DNA of 39,268 nucleotides, taken from positions 1-39,268 of the forward strand of contig JAPLFM010000204.1 of assembly GCA_026390675.1 (NCBI GenBank), written 5' to 3'. This document shows positions 8,986 to 27,042 of the stretch, piece after piece. Both the position numbers and the translations under genes were made by a program. Origin of the DNA: Candidatus Kapaibacterium sp. GTDB taxonomy: Bacteria > Bacteroidota > Ignavibacteria > Kapaibacteriales > UBA2268. Each line of letters starts with the position of its first letter. The stretch's first letter is position 1. The notes beneath the pieces are model-generated. The model saw only the letters and a list, made by a program, of their open reading frames with translations. It searched no databases and was not told the DNA's origin.

Positions 8986-9202
8986 TTAACTATTCTCCAA
9001 TAAACATTTAAAATGTAAAAAATAATATTCAAAATTAAGTGATTTTAACTGATTTATAAAGAATTATTAAGTTCTTTTAAATAATTTTTTAAATTCAATG
9101 ATTAAAGTATCAAAAAAATTAGTTGTAATACTTTCTTGTTGATAACTTCAAATCAATATATATATCTATTTTTGGTATTTTTGAAGTTAAATAAAAAAAA
9201 AT

Positions 9203-10000
9203 ATGTATAAATTAAAATTACCAAATTTCGAAGGACCTTTTGACCTCTTACTTTATTTTATAAAGCGAGATGAATTAGATATTTATGATATCCCAATTGC
9301 AAAAATCACTGAAGAATTCTTAACTTATGTTAGAATTATCAAAATGTTTGATTTGGAACTTGCAGGTGATTTTATACTTATGATTTCTACTTTGATGTCT
9401 ATTAAAGCTCAACTTCTTTTACCTAGGGAAAAAGATGACAATGGTGATGATATTGAAGATCCTAGAACAGAAATAGTACAGAAGCTATTAGAATATAAGC
9501 AATTTAAAGAAGCATCTAAAGAGATGGAAATAATGGCTGATGTAAATCGTTATATATTCTATCGCAATCAATATGATATTGATATTTCAAGTTATTCCCA
9601 AGATGATAATTACAAAAATGCTTCTTTGTTTGATTTAATAAATGCATTTCAAAAAATTATTAAAAGAAATTCTTACATTGAACCTCAACACAATATTGAA
9701 CTTTTTGCTTTAAGTGTAGAAGAACAATCTGGAATTTTAGAAAAAGAAGTTTTCTTGAAAAAAAGAGTTTCTTTTTATAAATTTCTTGAAGGTAAGACTA
9801 AAGAAATAATCGTTATTACTTTTCTAGCAATTTTAGATTTGGTAAGAAATAACAAGATTTATATTTTTCAAGATGATTTGTTTGAAGATATTAACATTGC
9901 TTCCATACCATTTGAAAATGACAAAATAAATTTAGAATTGATTGATGTTTCAGATCAAAAAGAAGATTTTAAAATGATTAACGAACTTGTAATAATATAA
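9203..10000 (+). CDS. scpA: Segregation and condensation protein A
   Basis: A 265-aa kleisin subunit of the SMC-ScpAB condensin. The N-terminal signature YKLKLPNFEGPFDLLLYFIKRDELDIYDIPIAKITEEFL is unmistakable (shown here as a family hallmark over residues 2-41), followed by the LAGDFILMISTLMSIKAQLLLP segment. The C-terminal winged helix (residues ~185-250, VITFLAILDLVRNNKIYIFQDDLFEDI) would contact the SMC head. It is the first gene of a tight four-gene operon: scpB starts 6 bp later. There is no clear ribosome-binding site in the A-run before the ATG, which is common in this AT-rich group. Confidence 0.96.
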   Translation: MYKLKLPNFEGPFDLLLYFIKRDELDIYDIPIAKITEEFLTYVRIIKMFDLELAGDFILMISTLMSIKAQLLLPREKDDNGDDIEDPRTEIVQKLLEYKQFKEASKEMEIMADVNRYIFYRNQYDIDISSYSQDDNYKNASLFDLINAFQKIIKRNSYIEPQHNIELFALSVEEQSGILEKEVFLKKRVSFYKFLEGKTKEIIVITFLAILDLVRNNKIYIFQDDLFEDINIASIPFENDKINLELIDVSDQKEDFKMINELVII

Positions 10001-13577: not shown

Positions 13578-14813
13578 TTAATCGAAATGTTTTCCAGATT
13601 CTTGCATTTGCGATGAAACAAATGGTAAGTGAGTTCCTTTCAAAAGCATATTCCAATAAATCCATCTAAATGCTAATTTTCCCATGTGATTCATTCTTGT
13701 TTCTTTTAAAAGTCTTAATGGTCCAATTCCAGGAAATGGGAAAGTACCTTCTACTGGCTCATGTGTATAGTTAAAATCAATCAAGAGAGCTTTTCCATTG
13801 CCTGTTTCTATAAAACAATTTGCATGACCATCAAAAGTTTCATTTAGAGGCTTACCTGATATAAAGTTCAATATATTCTCAGTCAATATTTCTGCTTCAA
13901 AGTGAGCAACTGAACCTGCTTTTGAAGCAGGTAAATTAGAAGCATCTCCAATTACAAAAATATTTTTTTGAGCTTTAGATTGAAGTGTTGCTTTATCTGT
14001 TGGGATAAAATTCAATTCATCTCCTATTCCAGATCTTGCAATTACTTCATCACCTTTATTTGTTGGAATAGTAACAAGCAAATCAAAAGGAATTTCTCTT
14101 CCACCATAATCAATTATTTTTTTGTTTTCATTATCCACACTTTCAATAGCAAAATCACTTTCAATATTAATATCTTTTTCATTTAAAAGATGTTCCAAAG
14201 CTTCAGTTGCTTTAGGTTTTGTAAAAGCACCACTTAGTGGTGTTACAAATGTTATTTCAACTTTATCTCTCATTGTTTTGTGATTAAAGAATGAATCTGC
14301 TAAAAATGCAAATTCTAATGGAGCAACTGGACATTTGATTGGCATTTCGGTAATATGAACTAATAATCTACCTCCTTCCCATTCCCTTAATTTATTTCTT
14401 AATGCTAATGCTCCTTCAAATGTATAAAAATCAAATACAGATTTTTGCCATTCACTTCCTTTCATTCCTTCTACTTCTTCTGGTGCAATTTTAGCACCTG
14501 TTGCTATAATGAGGATGTCATATTCATTTTTAGATCCATCTGCCATACTAATCATGTTTTCATTGTGATTTATTTTATCAATTTTGCCTTGAATTAGATT
14601 AACACCTTTTGGAATAAAATCTTTGATGTTTTTAATTATATCTTCAGGAGTATAAATATCAAAAGGAAGAAAAAGATAGCCAGGTTGATAATGATGTTCT
14701 TCTCTTTCATCAATTATATCTATTGACCATTCACTATTTTTAAGATGATGTTGCAAATGATTTGCCATCATTGTGCCAGAAGTTCCAGCACCAAGTATAA
14801 TTAGTTTTTTCAT
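13578..14813 (-). CDS. Sulfide:quinone oxidoreductase-like flavoprotein
   Basis: A 411-aa FAD-dependent two-dinucleotide-binding-domain protein. It shows the N-terminal FAD loop ILGAGTSG, the IIATGAKI strand, the second FAD contact IFVIGDASNLPASKAG, and a C-terminal amphipathic WIYWNMLLKG helix that could bind the membrane. SQR-type cysteines are partly conserved: Cys161 in MPIKCPVAP corresponds to the redox cysteine near the flavin and Cys333 (ANCFIETG) to the third SQR cysteine, while the first SQR cysteine is missing, as in some SQR subtypes. The likely reaction is sulfide or persulfide oxidation to sulfane sulfur with electrons to quinone, feeding DsrC/DsrE2 encoded next. It leads the operon (47 bp to the dsrC/tusE-like gene) and has palindromic operator candidates upstream. 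Confidence 0.82.
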   Translation of the reverse strand: MKKLIILGAGTSGTMMANHLQHHLKNSEWSIDIIDEREEHHYQPGYLFLPFDIYTPEDIIKNIKDFIPKGVNLIQGKIDKINHNENMISMADGSKNEYDILIIATGAKIAPEEVEGMKGSEWQKSVFDFYTFEGALALRNKLREWEGGRLLVHITEMPIKCPVAPLEFAFLADSFFNHKTMRDKVEITFVTPLSGAFTKPKATEALEHLLNEKDINIESDFAIESVDNENKKIIDYGGREIPFDLLVTIPTNKGDEVIARSGIGDELNFIPTDKATLQSKAQKNIFVIGDASNLPASKAGSVAHFEAEILTENILNFISGKPLNETFDGHANCFIETGNGKALLIDFNYTHEPVEGTFPFPGIGPLRLLKETRMNHMGKLAFRWIYWNMLLKGTHLPFVSSQMQESGKHFD

Positions 14814-16580: not shown

Positions 16581-19145
16581 ATGTCTGAATTTGTTCATCT
16601 TCACAATCACACCCATTATTCTTTGCTTGATTCTATAACTACTGTAGATGAGTTAGTTACCGAAGCTAAAAATGACAATCAACACGCAATTGCTTTAACT
16701 GATCATGGTGTAATGTTTGGTTTAATCGAGTTTTACAAGAAATGTAAAAGTAAGGAAATTAAACCAATACTCGGCGTAGAAGCATATATGGCTAATGGTA
16801 GTAGGTTTGAAAGAAATAATAGAAAAGATAAAAAAAATTACTACCACGTTATACTTTTAGCTAAAAATGTATCTGGCTATAAAAACATAATGCGAATGAC
16901 GTCATTAGCTAATATTGAAGGATTTCATTACAAACCACGTATAGATGAAGAACTTTTAAATGAATATCATGAGGGTGTAATATGTACATCAGCATGCATG
17001 GGTGGGGTAGTATCATCTCATGTTGTAGATGGTAATTACAATTTAGCTTATGAAACTGCTGAAAAATATAAAAATCTTTTTGGAGATGATTTTTATTTAG
17101 AAATCCAAAATCACTTTTTGAAAAACGATCCATTAATATTAGAGCAAGTTCCAGATATTGCCAAGAAATTAGGAATTAAGCTTGTTGCTACAAATGATGT
17201 TCACTATGCTAAAAAAGAACAAGCATTAGCACACAATGCACTTCTTCATATTAGAGATTACTCTGCTAATGAAGACATGGATATTAACATTCTTAAATAT
17301 GGTGTTGATGAATATTATGTCAAATCTCAATTAGAAATGAAAAGTCTATTTAGCGCATTTCCAGATGCATTACAAAGCACTTTAGAAATAGCTGATAAAT
17401 GTGATGTAGAGTTAGATATGAAAACTAATCACATGCCCATTTTTAATATACCTTTTGAGTCTAAAGCTAAAGATTTAGATGAATATCTTACTGAATTAGT
17501 TTATGAAGGTTTGCAAAAGAGATTTGAAGTAATTACTCAAAAACTAAAAGATAGAGTGGATTATGAGCTTTCTGTTATTATTAAAATGGGGTTTCCAGGT
17601 TACTTTTTAGTTGTAGCTGATTTTATCAGAGCAGCTAGAGAGATGGGTGTTAGAGTTGGTCCGGGACGTGGTTCTGCTGCTGGATCATTGGTCGCTTATG
17701 CACTTTGGATAGTTGATGTTGATCCATTAAAGTATGATTTGTTATTTGAGAGGTTCTTAAATCCTGATAGGGTTTCAATGCCCGATATTGACGTTGATTT
17801 TTCTGATGATAAGAGGGAATTAGTAATTGATTATGTTAAAGAAAAATATGGAAAAGAATCAATTGCTATGATTTCTACTTTTGGTAAACTTACTTCTAAA
17901 GCAGCAATTACTGATGTTGGTAGAATTTTAAAAGTTCCTTTGGAACTTGTTAAAGAAATTACGAAGAAAATCCCAGTCAAACTTGGAGTAGTAACTCCAA
18001 TGAAAGAAGTAATAACTCTGCCTGAACTAAAACAGTATGTTGAAAGTAATGATCCAAAACTTAAATTATTATTTGACTTAGCCACCAAATTAGAAAAGAG
18101 AAATAGAAATAATGGGATGCACGCTGCTGGGGTTGTGATAGCTCCTGGAAATATGCTTGATTATGTTCCATTAGTAAAAGCACCTAAAGAAACCAATATT
18201 TATACAACCCAATATACTATGAAAGATTTAGAAGATATTGGTTTAATTAAAATGGATTTTTTAGGTCTTAAAACTCTTCGTATTCTTGATGATGCTGTGG
18301 CTATGATTAAAGAAAACACTGGAATTTTTATTGATATAGATAATCTAGATTTGTTTGATGAGAAGACATATAATTTGATAGGTGAAGGTAATACTCTTGC
18401 AATTTTTCAATTTGAGTCAAATGGAATGCAAGAATATTTGAAAAAAATGAAGCCCAAAAGTATTGATGATCTTGCAGCTATGAACGCTCTTTATAGACCA
18501 GGACCAATGGGGAATATCCCTGAATTCTTAGAAAGACGTGCAGGAACAAAGCCTGTGGTTTATATTCACCCAATTATGGAAGAATCGCTTAAAAATACTT
18601 TTGGAATCATTGTTTATCAAGAGCAAGTAATGAGATTGGCTCAAGATATTGGAGGCTATACTCTTTCTCAAGCTGATTTGCTTCGTAGAGCTATGGGTAA
18701 AAAAGATGCATATCAAATGGAAAATGTTATTAAGCCAGAGTTGATTAAAAGAATGGCTGAAAAAGGTGTAGATTCTAAAGTAGCAAATGAAATAACTGAA
18801 TTGATTGTAAAGTTTGCTGATTATGGATTTAATAAATCACATGCTGTTGTTTATTCATATATTGCTTATCAAACTGCATTTTTAAAAGCAAATTACCCAG
18901 CTGAATTCCTTGCTGCAACTATGTCAGCCGAATTAAATAACCAAGCAAAAATAGTAGAGCTTAAAGACGAAGCCAAAAAAATGGGAGTAAAGACAATTGC
19001 CTTCACCCGCGTTGGTGGTGATATTTCAAAAATAGCCGATTTAAGCATTGAAGTACCTTCTCTCAACACTCAACATATACAGGAATGTCACATGCTGATT
19101 TTAAAGGTTTCTTTGATTTCTGTGCAAGAGTGGAAATTAGATTAG
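16581..19145 (+). CDS. dnaE: DNA polymerase III alpha subunit, N-terminal part (broken gene: PHP, palm, thumb, fingers)
   Basis: An 854-residue frame carrying the N-terminal two-thirds of a replicative DnaE. The PHP domain starts with HLHNHTHYSLLDS. The palm has GVRVGPGRGSAAGSLVAYAL, the catalytic Asp402/Asp404 in MPDIDVDF and the third Asp559 in KMDFLGLKTL, and the fingers run through FADYGFNKSHAVVYSYIAYQTAFLKANYPAEFL. All polymerase catalytic residues are intact. After residue ~800 (DEAKKMGVK) the sequence stops being DnaE: residues ~801-841 read as the GmhA C-terminus, and the last 13 residues are out-of-frame dnaE sequence. A normal DnaE is about 1,150 aa, so the clamp-binding and OB regions are lost from this frame and lie in the next one. 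It may be a pseudogene, a strain polymorphism or an assembly error; another dnaE would be needed for viability if the break is real. Confidence 0.93.
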   Translation: MSEFVHLHNHTHYSLLDSITTVDELVTEAKNDNQHAIALTDHGVMFGLIEFYKKCKSKEIKPILGVEAYMANGSRFERNNRKDKKNYYHVILLAKNVSGYKNIMRMTSLANIEGFHYKPRIDEELLNEYHEGVICTSACMGGVVSSHVVDGNYNLAYETAEKYKNLFGDDFYLEIQNHFLKNDPLILEQVPDIAKKLGIKLVATNDVHYAKKEQALAHNALLHIRDYSANEDMDINILKYGVDEYYVKSQLEMKSLFSAFPDALQSTLEIADKCDVELDMKTNHMPIFNIPFESKAKDLDEYLTELVYEGLQKRFEVITQKLKDRVDYELSVIIKMGFPGYFLVVADFIRAAREMGVRVGPGRGSAAGSLVAYALWIVDVDPLKYDLLFERFLNPDRVSMPDIDVDFSDDKRELVIDYVKEKYGKESIAMISTFGKLTSKAAITDVGRILKVPLELVKEITKKIPVKLGVVTPMKEVITLPELKQYVESNDPKLKLLFDLATKLEKRNRNNGMHAAGVVIAPGNMLDYVPLVKAPKETNIYTTQYTMKDLEDIGLIKMDFLGLKTLRILDDAVAMIKENTGIFIDIDNLDLFDEKTYNLIGEGNTLAIFQFESNGMQEYLKKMKPKSIDDLAAMNALYRPGPMGNIPEFLERRAGTKPVVYIHPIMEESLKNTFGIIVYQEQVMRLAQDIGGYTLSQADLLRRAMGKKDAYQMENVIKPELIKRMAEKGVDSKVANEITELIVKFADYGFNKSHAVVYSYIAYQTAFLKANYPAEFLAATMSAELNNQAKIVELKDEAKKMGVKTIAFTRVGGDISKIADLSIEVPSLNTQHIQECHMLILKVSLISVQEWKLD
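18978..19103 (+). pseudogene. Fragment of a gmhA-like (SIS-domain phosphoheptose isomerase) gene embedded in dnaE
   Basis: Translated in the upstream dnaE frame, residues ~801-841 read GVKTIAFTRVGGDISKIADL followed by SIEVPSLNTQHIQECHMLI. This is the GmhA/SIS C-terminal pattern: T-x-x-GG, AD-x-x-x-x-VPS, and T-Q-x-IQE-x-H. Base use (ACCCGC, CTCTCAAC) is more GC-rich than flanking dnaE. It replaces roughly 50 normal DnaE codons. Boundaries are blurred because both ends fall in stretches that could match either gene (AAAAAAATGGGAGTAAA on the left, GCTGATTTTAAA on the right). No complete gmhA is present in the window. Confidence 0.85.
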
Positions 19146-20119
19146 TAAACCGTAGAGCTTTAGAAGCATTAATATGTTCAGGAGCCTTTGATGGCTTGGC
19201 TGATAATGGTCATAGAGCTGCGTATATGTTGGCTATAGATTCAGCATTAGATTATTCAAAATCTATGTCTGAAGGACACAATAGTTCTATGGATAGTCTT
19301 TTTGCTGGAGGTGATGAAACTTCATTTACAGAACCACAATTACCAGAAATTCCAATTTGGACAGATGAATATAGGTTAGAAAAAGAAAATGAATATTTAA
19401 ATTATTATGTTACAGGCCACCCTTTAATGAAATATGAAGCCCATATCGATTCTCTTTCATCTGTAACTACTAAAAATTTCAATGGTGTTAAAACTGATGA
19501 CCCTGTTTCATATTGTGGTATTATTACAGATATAAGAACTCGAATTGATAAAAACAAGAAAACAATTGGATTTATTACTATTGAAGATTTTACTGGTAAA
19601 GCAGAATGTATCTTTTGGTCAAAGGCTTGGGAAGAAAATGAGAAATATATAATAAAAAATTCAATTGTCTATATTTATGGAAAAGTAAAAGATGTTCCAG
19701 AAATTAAAGAAGTTGAAAATTTAATTGATGAAAGCGAAGATTCTCAAGAAAAGGATGAAATACTTAAAATTGTTGTTGATTATATTGAACCTATTGAAAA
19801 AGTAGTTAATGAATTTTGTACTGGGTTTAAAATTTGGATAAATGAAGATGATAAAGAGTTGAAATCTAAATTAGAAGAATTAAGTAAAATCCAATTATTA
19901 ACTAAAGGAGCTAAGTCTATTTTAATCATAAATTTAAAACAAAATAGTGGTCAGAAAATTTTGATTTATGAAGCTGAAAAAGCTAATATTATTCCTAATA
20001 GTGAAAATACAATAAAACTAATGGGTATATTTGGAAATAACAGCATACGTCTTTTAATGAACAGAATGGAACGAAATGAAAAACTAGATAAAAGACAATC
20101 TTGGAAGAAAAAGCAATAG
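19085..20119 (+). CDS. dnaE: DNA polymerase III alpha subunit, C-terminal part (separate frame of the broken gene)
   Basis: A 344-residue frame whose true dnaE sequence begins at ADFKGFFDFCARVEIRLVNRRALEALICSGAFDGL, the region just after the helix-hairpin-helix motif of DnaE. The first Met-Ser-His codons come from the gmhA-like insert read out of frame. A clamp-binding-like SMDSLFAG segment lies near residue 70, and an OB-fold (VSYCGIITDIRTRIDKNKK; GFITIEDFTGKAECIFWSKAW; VYIYGKVKD) spans ~135-215. The C-terminal ~120 residues are the variable tau-binding region. There is no ribosome-binding site tailored to this ATG, so it is probably not expressed alone. It overlaps the upstream frame by 61 bp in a different phase. 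Confidence 0.85.
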   Translation: MSHADFKGFFDFCARVEIRLVNRRALEALICSGAFDGLADNGHRAAYMLAIDSALDYSKSMSEGHNSSMDSLFAGGDETSFTEPQLPEIPIWTDEYRLEKENEYLNYYVTGHPLMKYEAHIDSLSSVTTKNFNGVKTDDPVSYCGIITDIRTRIDKNKKTIGFITIEDFTGKAECIFWSKAWEENEKYIIKNSIVYIYGKVKDVPEIKEVENLIDESEDSQEKDEILKIVVDYIEPIEKVVNEFCTGFKIWINEDDKELKSKLEELSKIQLLTKGAKSILIINLKQNSGQKILIYEAEKANIIPNSENTIKLMGIFGNNSIRLLMNRMERNEKLDKRQSWKKKQ

Positions 20120-24177: not shown

Positions 24178-27042
24178 ATGAGTAACATTCATCATTACGA
24201 TCAGTTCGTAAATCGTCACATTGGTCCCTCAGATGATCAAATCAATCAAATGCTAATATCTATGAATTACAATAGCTTAGATGAATTGATTGATAATACA
24301 ATACCTCAAAAAATCAGACTTAAAAACCCAATTAATATTGGTGATGCCGTTTCTGAATTCGACTTTTTAAAATCAATTAAAGCCACGACTTGCAAAAACA
24401 AAGTATTGAAATCGTTTATTGGACTTGGATATAACTCAACTATTACTCCTGCAGTTATTTTAAGAAATGTATTAGAAAATCCAGGATGGTACACACAATA
24501 TACACCTTACCAAGCTGAAATATCACAAGGAAGGCTTGAAGCATTAATCAATTTTCAAACTATGATAATTGATTTAACTGGTATGGAAATAGCAAATGCT
24601 TCTTTGCTTGACGAAGGTACTGCAGCTGCAGAATCTATGCACTTATTCCATTCAATGAGAAAACCAAACCAAAATACTTTTTTAGTTTCTGAGAAATGCT
24701 TCCCTCAAACTATTGATATAATTAAAACTAGAGCTTCTCCTCTAGGAATTAATGTTATAGTTGGTTGTTCTAAAAAGTTTGAATTAAATGATAATACTTT
24801 GGGAGTTTTGGTACAATATCCAAATAAAGATGGTAAAGTTGGCGATTATGCAGATTTATTCAAAAGATGTGCTGATAAAGGAATTTTTACATGCGTTGCT
24901 ACCGATATTCTTAGCCTTGCATTACTAACTCCACCGGGAGAATTTGGTGCTGATGTAGTTGTTGGCTCTACTCAAAGATTTGGAGTACCAATGGGATTTG
25001 GTGGTCCTCACGCAGCATATTTTGCTACAAGAGATAAATATAAAAGAAATATCCCAGGTAGAATGATTGGTTTTACTATTGATGCTCAAGGTAATAAAGC
25101 ATTAAGAATGGCACTTCAAACTCGTGAACAACATATCAAAAGAGAACGTGCTACTTCAAATATTTGTACTGCTCAGGTACTTTTGGCTATTATTGCTGGA
25201 ATGTATGCAGTTTATCATGGTCCTAAAGGTGTAAAAGCTATTGCTCAATACTTGCATAATCTTGCTGCTAAATTAGAAACAAATCTAAAAGCATTAGGCT
25301 TTAACCAAATGAATGAATTTTACTTTGATACAATTAGGATAGAACTTAATTCTACTCAAATTACGAAATTAAAAACACTTTCTGTTAATAAAGGTTATAA
25401 CTTTAATTACACTGATGAATATGTAACTATTTCACTTGGTGAGACTACACAAATTGAAGATATTGAAGATATTATAAATATTTTTGCTGAACTTGCTGGA
25501 AAAACTGCAAGTATTTCAATTTCTGATACTGCTGAAAATCGTATTCCAAGTAATTTAAATAGAACTTCTAACTACTTAACTCATCAAGTATTTAACTCTT
25601 ACCACAGCGAAACAGATTTGTTAAGATACTTGAAAACCTTAGAAAATAAAGACTTATCATTAACTAAATCAATGATTCCTCTTGGCTCTTGTACAATGAA
25701 ACTGAATGCAACTTCGGAGATGATACCAGTTACTTTCCCTGAACTTGGTAATATTCACCCTTTTGCACCTTTAGATCAAGCACAAGGCTATATGGAGTTA
25801 ATTACTGAACTTGAAAAAGATTTGGCTGAAATTACTGGTTTTGCTGGAGTTTCACTTCAACCAAATTCTGGTGCTCAAGGAGAGTATTCTGGATTGATGG
25901 TTATTAGAGCTTATCATCATTCTCGTGGTGATCATCATAGAAATGTATGTGTTATACCTGCATCAGCTCATGGAACTAATCCTGCTTCGGCAGTAATGGC
26001 TGGAATGAAAGTAGTTGTAGCTAAAACAAACCCTGATGGCTCAATTAACTTTGAAGATTTGCAAGCAAAAGTTGAAGCTAATAAAGATAATTTAGCTGCA
26101 CTAATGGTTACTTACCCTTCAACAAATGGTATTTTCGATGAAAATATTATTGAAGTGTGTGATATAATCCATGCAAATGGTGGTCAAGTATATATGGATG
26201 GTGCAAATATGAATGCACAAGTTGGCTTGACTAGTCCTGGTATGATTAATGCAGATGTTTGCCACTTAAATTTACATAAAACTTTCTGTATACCTCATGG
26301 CGGTGGTGGACCTGGTGTAGGACCAATTTGTGTTGCAAAACATTTAGTTGAATTTTTACCGGGATCTGCAGTTGTTAATATTGATAGAGGTAATTCTATT
26401 TCATCTGTATCTGCTGCTCCTTGGGGATCTGCAAGTATATTGGTTATATCTTATGCATTTATCAAAATGATGGGTGGCAAGGGCTTAAAAAAAGCAACTG
26501 AAGTAGCAATCTTAAATGCAAATTACTTAAAAGAAAAGCTTAAAGACCATTATAAAGTATTATTTACTGGTTCAAAAGGAAATGTAGCTCACGAGTTAAT
26601 TTTTGATATGAATGGATTTAAAGCTACTTGTGGAATTGAAGTAACAGATATTGCAAAAAGATTAATGGATTATGGTTTCCACGCTCCTACTGTTTCTTTC
26701 CCAGTTCCGGGTACATTGATGGTAGAGCCAACTGAATCTGAGCCACTTGCTGAATTAGATAGATTCATTGAAGCAATGATTTCAATACGACAAGAAATTA
26801 AAGATTTGGAAGATGGAGTAGCACAAAAAGAAAACAATATTTTAAGTAATGCTCCTCACACTTCACAAGTAGTAATAGCTGATGAGTGGGACAAACCATA
26901 TTCAAGAGCAAAAGCAGCTTTCCCAACCGAGCATACTAAAAAAGCTAAATTCTGGCCCACAGTATCTCGTGTGAATGATGCTTATGGCGATAGAAATTTA
27001 GTTTGCTCATGCAATCCAATTGAAGATTATATAGAAAATTAA
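24178..27042 (+). CDS. gcvP: Glycine dehydrogenase (decarboxylating), P-protein of the glycine cleavage system, single-chain form
   Basis: A 954-aa PLP enzyme that decarboxylates glycine and transfers the aminomethyl group to lipoyl-GcvH. The N-terminal half begins [17 protein letters not shown] and contains the degenerate first lobe ([31 protein letters not shown] region, residues ~85-120). The C-terminal catalytic lobe has [24 protein letters not shown], and the PLP Lys701 in [18 protein letters not shown]. The single-chain (fused alpha-beta) layout is the one usual in Bacteroidota and proteobacteria, in contrast to the split gcvPA/gcvPB. gcvT and gcvH are not adjacent. It ends with a strong terminator. 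No glycine riboswitch fits in the 99-bp leader. Confidence 0.98.

Follow-up and report, generated by a model that had tools for sequence, protein, structure and literature searches.

Does the replicative polymerase gene dnaE of this Candidatus Kapaibacterium sp. genome (GCA_026390675.1) truly carry a piece of a foreign sugar isomerase gene, or was that piece placed there during assembly? The locus lies in a stretch of 39,268 nucleotides from contig JAPLFM010000204.1 (scaffold C322 of the bin), hereafter the window, to which positions refer unless another contig is named. An open reading frame of 854 aa (16581-19145) reads as DnaE until about residue 804 (NCBIfam PRK05673, E=0, residues 3-806) and then continues as KTIAFTRVGGDISKIADLSIEVPSLNTQHIQECHMLI. 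The dnaE 5' part (16581-18986, + strand) spans 802 open codons and encodes the PHP, polymerase (PF07733) and finger (PF17657) domains. It passes in frame into ~107 bp of foreign DNA (18987-19093, + strand), which encodes ~35 residues from the C-terminus of a GmhA-type sedoheptulose-7-phosphate isomerase. The joints fall at ~18986 and ~19094, both edges being placed to within roughly 10-20 bp, and the dnaE sequence leading into the first joint reads AAAATGGGAGTAAA.

Beyond the insert, dnaE resumes in a second frame (19094-20119, + strand) that encodes the remaining helix-hairpin-helix, a clamp-binding-like MDSLF and the OB fold. The first ATG of this frame, at 19085, lies within the insert, with AGGA a few bases upstream. 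The corresponding ORF (19085-20119) matches PRK05673 at profile positions 850-1129, which agrees with the out-of-frame resumption described in the first-pass annotation, and its Pfam HHH_6 match is restricted to positions 49-86 of 90 (the second part of the domain). The clamp-binding-like MDSLF and the catalytic motifs are retained across the two frames. A functional DnaE in the sense of PRK05673 and TIGR00594 is a single open frame through PHP, palm, fingers, helix-hairpin-helix and OB; this gene falls short of it because its frame closes at 19145 and it lacks ~46 residues, among them those that begin the helix-hairpin-helix.

We then asked what the insert is. The first-pass annotation had recognized a GmhA/SIS C-terminus, and profile searches bear this out: the 51-aa tail alone matches the NCBIfam gmhA model TIGR00441 (E=2.8e-5), and an alignment of the ORF to both profiles, which the annotation had proposed, gives a gmhA match at residues 787-843 and a DnaE match up to residue 806. 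The insert resembles GmhA in aligning to profile positions 109-148 of 154, but it comprises the C-terminal quarter only, without the SIS core; its score of 24-29 bits comes from C-terminal positions only and stays below the family cut-off of 209 bits, which goes with an SIS core. All ten plasmid matches to the tail lie in sugar-isomerase genes, nine of them D-sedoheptulose 7-phosphate isomerases and one an SIS domain protein. The best match in GTDB r220 shows 62% identity over 42 residues, with IEVPSINTQHIQECHM. Because a Pfam search with a 40-aa piece of the insert gave no match, the identification as GmhA is drawn from the NCBIfam models and these sequence matches.

The insert takes the place of a conserved stretch of dnaE. 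In 29 aligned relatives, the spacing from AKKMG to ADF is 46-89 residues, usually 46-47 (138-141 bp), against 107 bp here, values close to the exchange of ~150 bp of dnaE for ~100 bp of gmhA that had been estimated from the letters. The lost segment includes the first part of the helix-hairpin-helix, which reads like FGLAGIKNVG in relatives; the absence of a GLGAIKNVG-like motif noted earlier is thus confirmed, HHH_6 positions 49-86 being what remains of the domain. At third codon positions, the GC content (GC3) reaches 35% in the insert and at most 32% in dnaE stretches of equal length, again as the first-pass annotation had suspected.

To identify the donor, we searched progressively wider collections. 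The insert DNA occurs nowhere else in its own assembled genome, whose sole real gmhA (C178:8151-8606) has ~47% protein identity to the insert; the search for a donor gmhA at home, suggested by the first-pass annotation, therefore returned no DNA match. No donor was found in the family or order of the source genome, nothing closer than 57% in a phylum sample of 396 genomes, nothing above 62% identity in the scan of GTDB r220 or among plasmids, and no donor or relative among IMG/VR viral contigs and phages. The closest match (62%) is in a 1.5-Mb environmental metagenome-assembled genome; few members of its order have the gene (3 of 296 genomes). We consider a co-occurring organism the likely source of the insert. 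As a separate observation, the record of locus L034 (2001-2126) is titled Streptomyces griseus, a title that looks wrong for a genome of ~1.5 Mb in an order of ~0.8-1.6 Mb.

The fusion is equally isolated. A search with the 54 residues of the joint region through the family (54 genomes), order (123) and phylum (396) recovered only ordinary gmhA besides the window, and the five loci returned by the GTDB scan were gmhA-like, none of them another fusion. Among the 39 other genomes of the order, none has a split dnaE; 35 have an open dnaE frame of at least 1,150 residues, and the remaining four appear cut at contig ends. The search of the same genome for an intact dnaE, another of the checks proposed earlier, found none: the broken copy is the only dnaE-like match, at a completeness of 94%.

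We conclude that the GmhA piece in dnaE is very probably an assembly artefact, because the sole dnaE copy is broken out of frame yet open in nearly all examined genomes of the order, C322 is a scaffold with an N run at the end of the window, other conserved genes of the bin are broken at joints, the donor DNA is absent from a bin whose own gmhA is a distant homologue, and the GC3 of the insert is atypical for dnaE. In the organism itself, dnaE is most likely ordinary and runs without a break. Two features expected of a chimera are present: the parts come from different genes or genomes (DnaE profile, gmhA profile, then DnaE again, with donor DNA foreign to the genome), and the same assembly contains further faulty joints (rpoC, a glutamine synthetase-like gene and two more genes) as well as N gaps. 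Of the three outcomes that the first-pass annotation had left side by side, assembly error is strongly favored by these other join scars and the scaffold gap, and the pseudogene and the split two-chain polymerase are disfavored.

Such a joint could have arisen at a low-coverage spot in dnaE while short metagenomic reads were being assembled, scaffolded or used to close gaps. A read or very small contig, possibly a single read, from the gmhA of another community member would have spanned the weak spot; with its overlaps, the bridging patch would measure ~110-150 bp, about the length that one short read covers. On the left, the overlap may have been provided by AKKMGVK-like residues coded by both dnaE and gmhA, and on the right by a short shared stretch around CATGCTGATTTTAAA. 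The frame would have been preserved by chance at the left join and lost at the right one.

This scenario fits published experience with metagenomes. Misassemblies are mostly chimeras of fragments with different origins, and MEGAHIT is prone to inter-genome translocations (PMC9661791). Gap filling has been associated with high mis-assembly rates at closing sites (PMC9575681), and technical artefacts can produce frameshifted pseudogenes (PMC11017572). Compared with inter-genome chimeras and gap-closing errors as the metaMIC (PMC9661791) and RFfiller (PMC9575681) papers present them, our locus is alike in that fragments of different origin are joined and conserved genes are broken in an N-gapped, scaffolded bin; it differs in that both flanks belong to the same gene, with a short foreign patch between them in place of a contig-length translocation.

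To evaluate how far faulty joints extend beyond dnaE, genes of the bin were tested against the proteins of a relative assembled as a single contig (G055). The bin consists of 330 pieces and is 94% complete and 1.3% contaminated. The N run in C322 (C322:39269-39270, 2 bases) lies exactly at the window end, and other sequences of the bin carry N runs of 14-122 bases. The survey of broken frames covered 595 kb of 3.66 Mb (about one sixth of the genome) and found 3 of 139 testable genes broken, dnaE not included; in the opposite direction, with bin proteins against G055, the count was 0 of 124. The glutamine synthetase-like gene (L230, G000:C125, 3137-4601, - strand) has ~16-18 codons deleted out of frame relative to G055. 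A gene on C270 (L156, 2491-2518) has lost a conserved frame at an exact 14-bp head-to-tail duplication of TTGGTGTAATTGGA; exact duplications of this kind are typical of unmerged contig ends. The third, on C70 (L143, near 3522), encodes a long protein of weak conservation (28-37% identical to its G055 homologue) and contains a frameshift.

The break in rpoC came separately, from a scan for overlapping frames. This gene (L150, G000:C160, 7193-11552) falls into two overlapping frames, one of 687 and the other of 785 codons, and the break coincides with an 18-bp near-duplicate: the joint (near 9198-9275) reads GCTACAAATAGAGTTGCC, followed 22 bp on by the near-copy GCAACCAATAAAGTTGCC, so that one coding stretch is present twice in two versions. 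From its sequence, the split looks like an assembly joint. That one living lineage should have both rpoC and dnaE broken is not credible, and faulty joints explain both. In another contig (L145, G000:C90, 15634-17572, - strand), a glutamine amidotransferase frame and a WbuX-like frame (N-acetyl sugar amidotransferase) share 59 bp, either as a pair of overlapping genes or as one fused gene with a frameshift.

Three observations speak against an artefact. Chance identity is required at both ends of the insert. The other scars of the bin are duplications or deletions, none of them shown to contain foreign DNA, so that the dnaE joint alone looks interspecies. Finally, the dnaE 5' part has changes at 10 of 186 sites that are invariant in the other 25 sequences (0-5 in relatives), whereas the count for gyrB in this bin is 0 of 229; this excess would also be expected of a gene under relaxed constraint. 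It may reflect a trait of the lineage, mosaic sequence or relaxed constraint. The N part of dnaE lies on a long branch, its substitutions are mostly conservative and its frame is open over the 802 codons.

Among the alternatives, natural recombination survives best, although we regard it as improbable. Here, ~140 bp of dnaE would have been exchanged for ~107 bp of foreign gmhA, either through template switching or through double illegitimate recombination over a short patch, and dnaE inactivated in a cell or in a minor strain. The insert is foreign to the genome, its joints lie at apparent short similar stretches, and substitutions of this type have been reported in Acinetobacter baylyi (Harms et al. 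2016 PNAS, as cited in PMC8116780). The likeness to the A. baylyi cases is that a short recipient stretch is exchanged for unrelated DNA; the differences are that those substitutions reportedly arose under laboratory selection, whereas the present patch is seen in an assembled sequence and would cost the cell an essential gene. The only replicative polymerase gene found would be lost, which is presumably lethal, and a natural variant could therefore not dominate the population behind the assembled consensus. Natural recombination would also leave the other broken core genes of the bin, rpoC included, without explanation, whereas several core genes broken in one bin point to one common technical cause, not to many lethal events. 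The double crossover or template switch proposed in the first-pass annotation found no support in our results.

Misbinning is less probable still. If C322 belonged to another organism, the true dnaE would lie in the 6% of the genome that the assembly lacks; the 94% completeness leaves room for this, the long branch of the dnaE N part is compatible with it, and gcvP of the scaffold is single-chain, unlike in nearly all members of the family. However, the GC and tetranucleotide composition of C322 matches the bin, and misbinning alone leaves the insert without explanation.

We give hardly any credence to a working two-chain DnaE, with an N part (PHP, palm, fingers) bearing a harmless GmhA tail and a C part translated from ATG 19085: both frames are long and open, AGGA stands a few bases upstream of that ATG and the clamp-binding-like MDSLF and catalytic motifs are preserved, but the loss of ~46 residues, with the start of the helix-hairpin-helix among them, goes beyond mere splitting, no split occurs in the 39 relatives and the GmhA tail is a mere fragment that lacks the SIS core. 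It is just as doubtful that the sole gene for the replicative polymerase received a real and recent foreign patch and that the cell survives with such a two-chain enzyme; if true, it would be surprising that a replicative polymerase works with part of its helix-hairpin-helix missing.

A join of two dnaE genes, with N and C parts from different organisms, was also considered. The identities of the C part to relatives fit the expectation from the N part within 2 s.d., and these identities, together with the composition of C322, which fits the bin, do not support such a join. Separate trees of the N and C parts gave different neighbors, without firm support. We tried gcvP as a rate control for dnaE and rejected it because it is split in most of the family.

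With an assembly artefact as the preferred reading, the value of this locus is one of caution: a bin that scores well in completeness and contamination still has rpoC, dnaE and other genes broken at faulty joints. Apparent gene fusions and split essential genes of this assembly should therefore not be taken as biology.

Two other genes of the window were recorded. The glycine dehydrogenase (24178-27042) is a single 954-aa chain; it is encoded by two genes in nearly all family members examined, with one other single-chain case. The sulfide:quinone reductase (13578-14813, - strand) matches the NCBIfam selenoprotein-subtype model over its full length, without an in-frame TGA.
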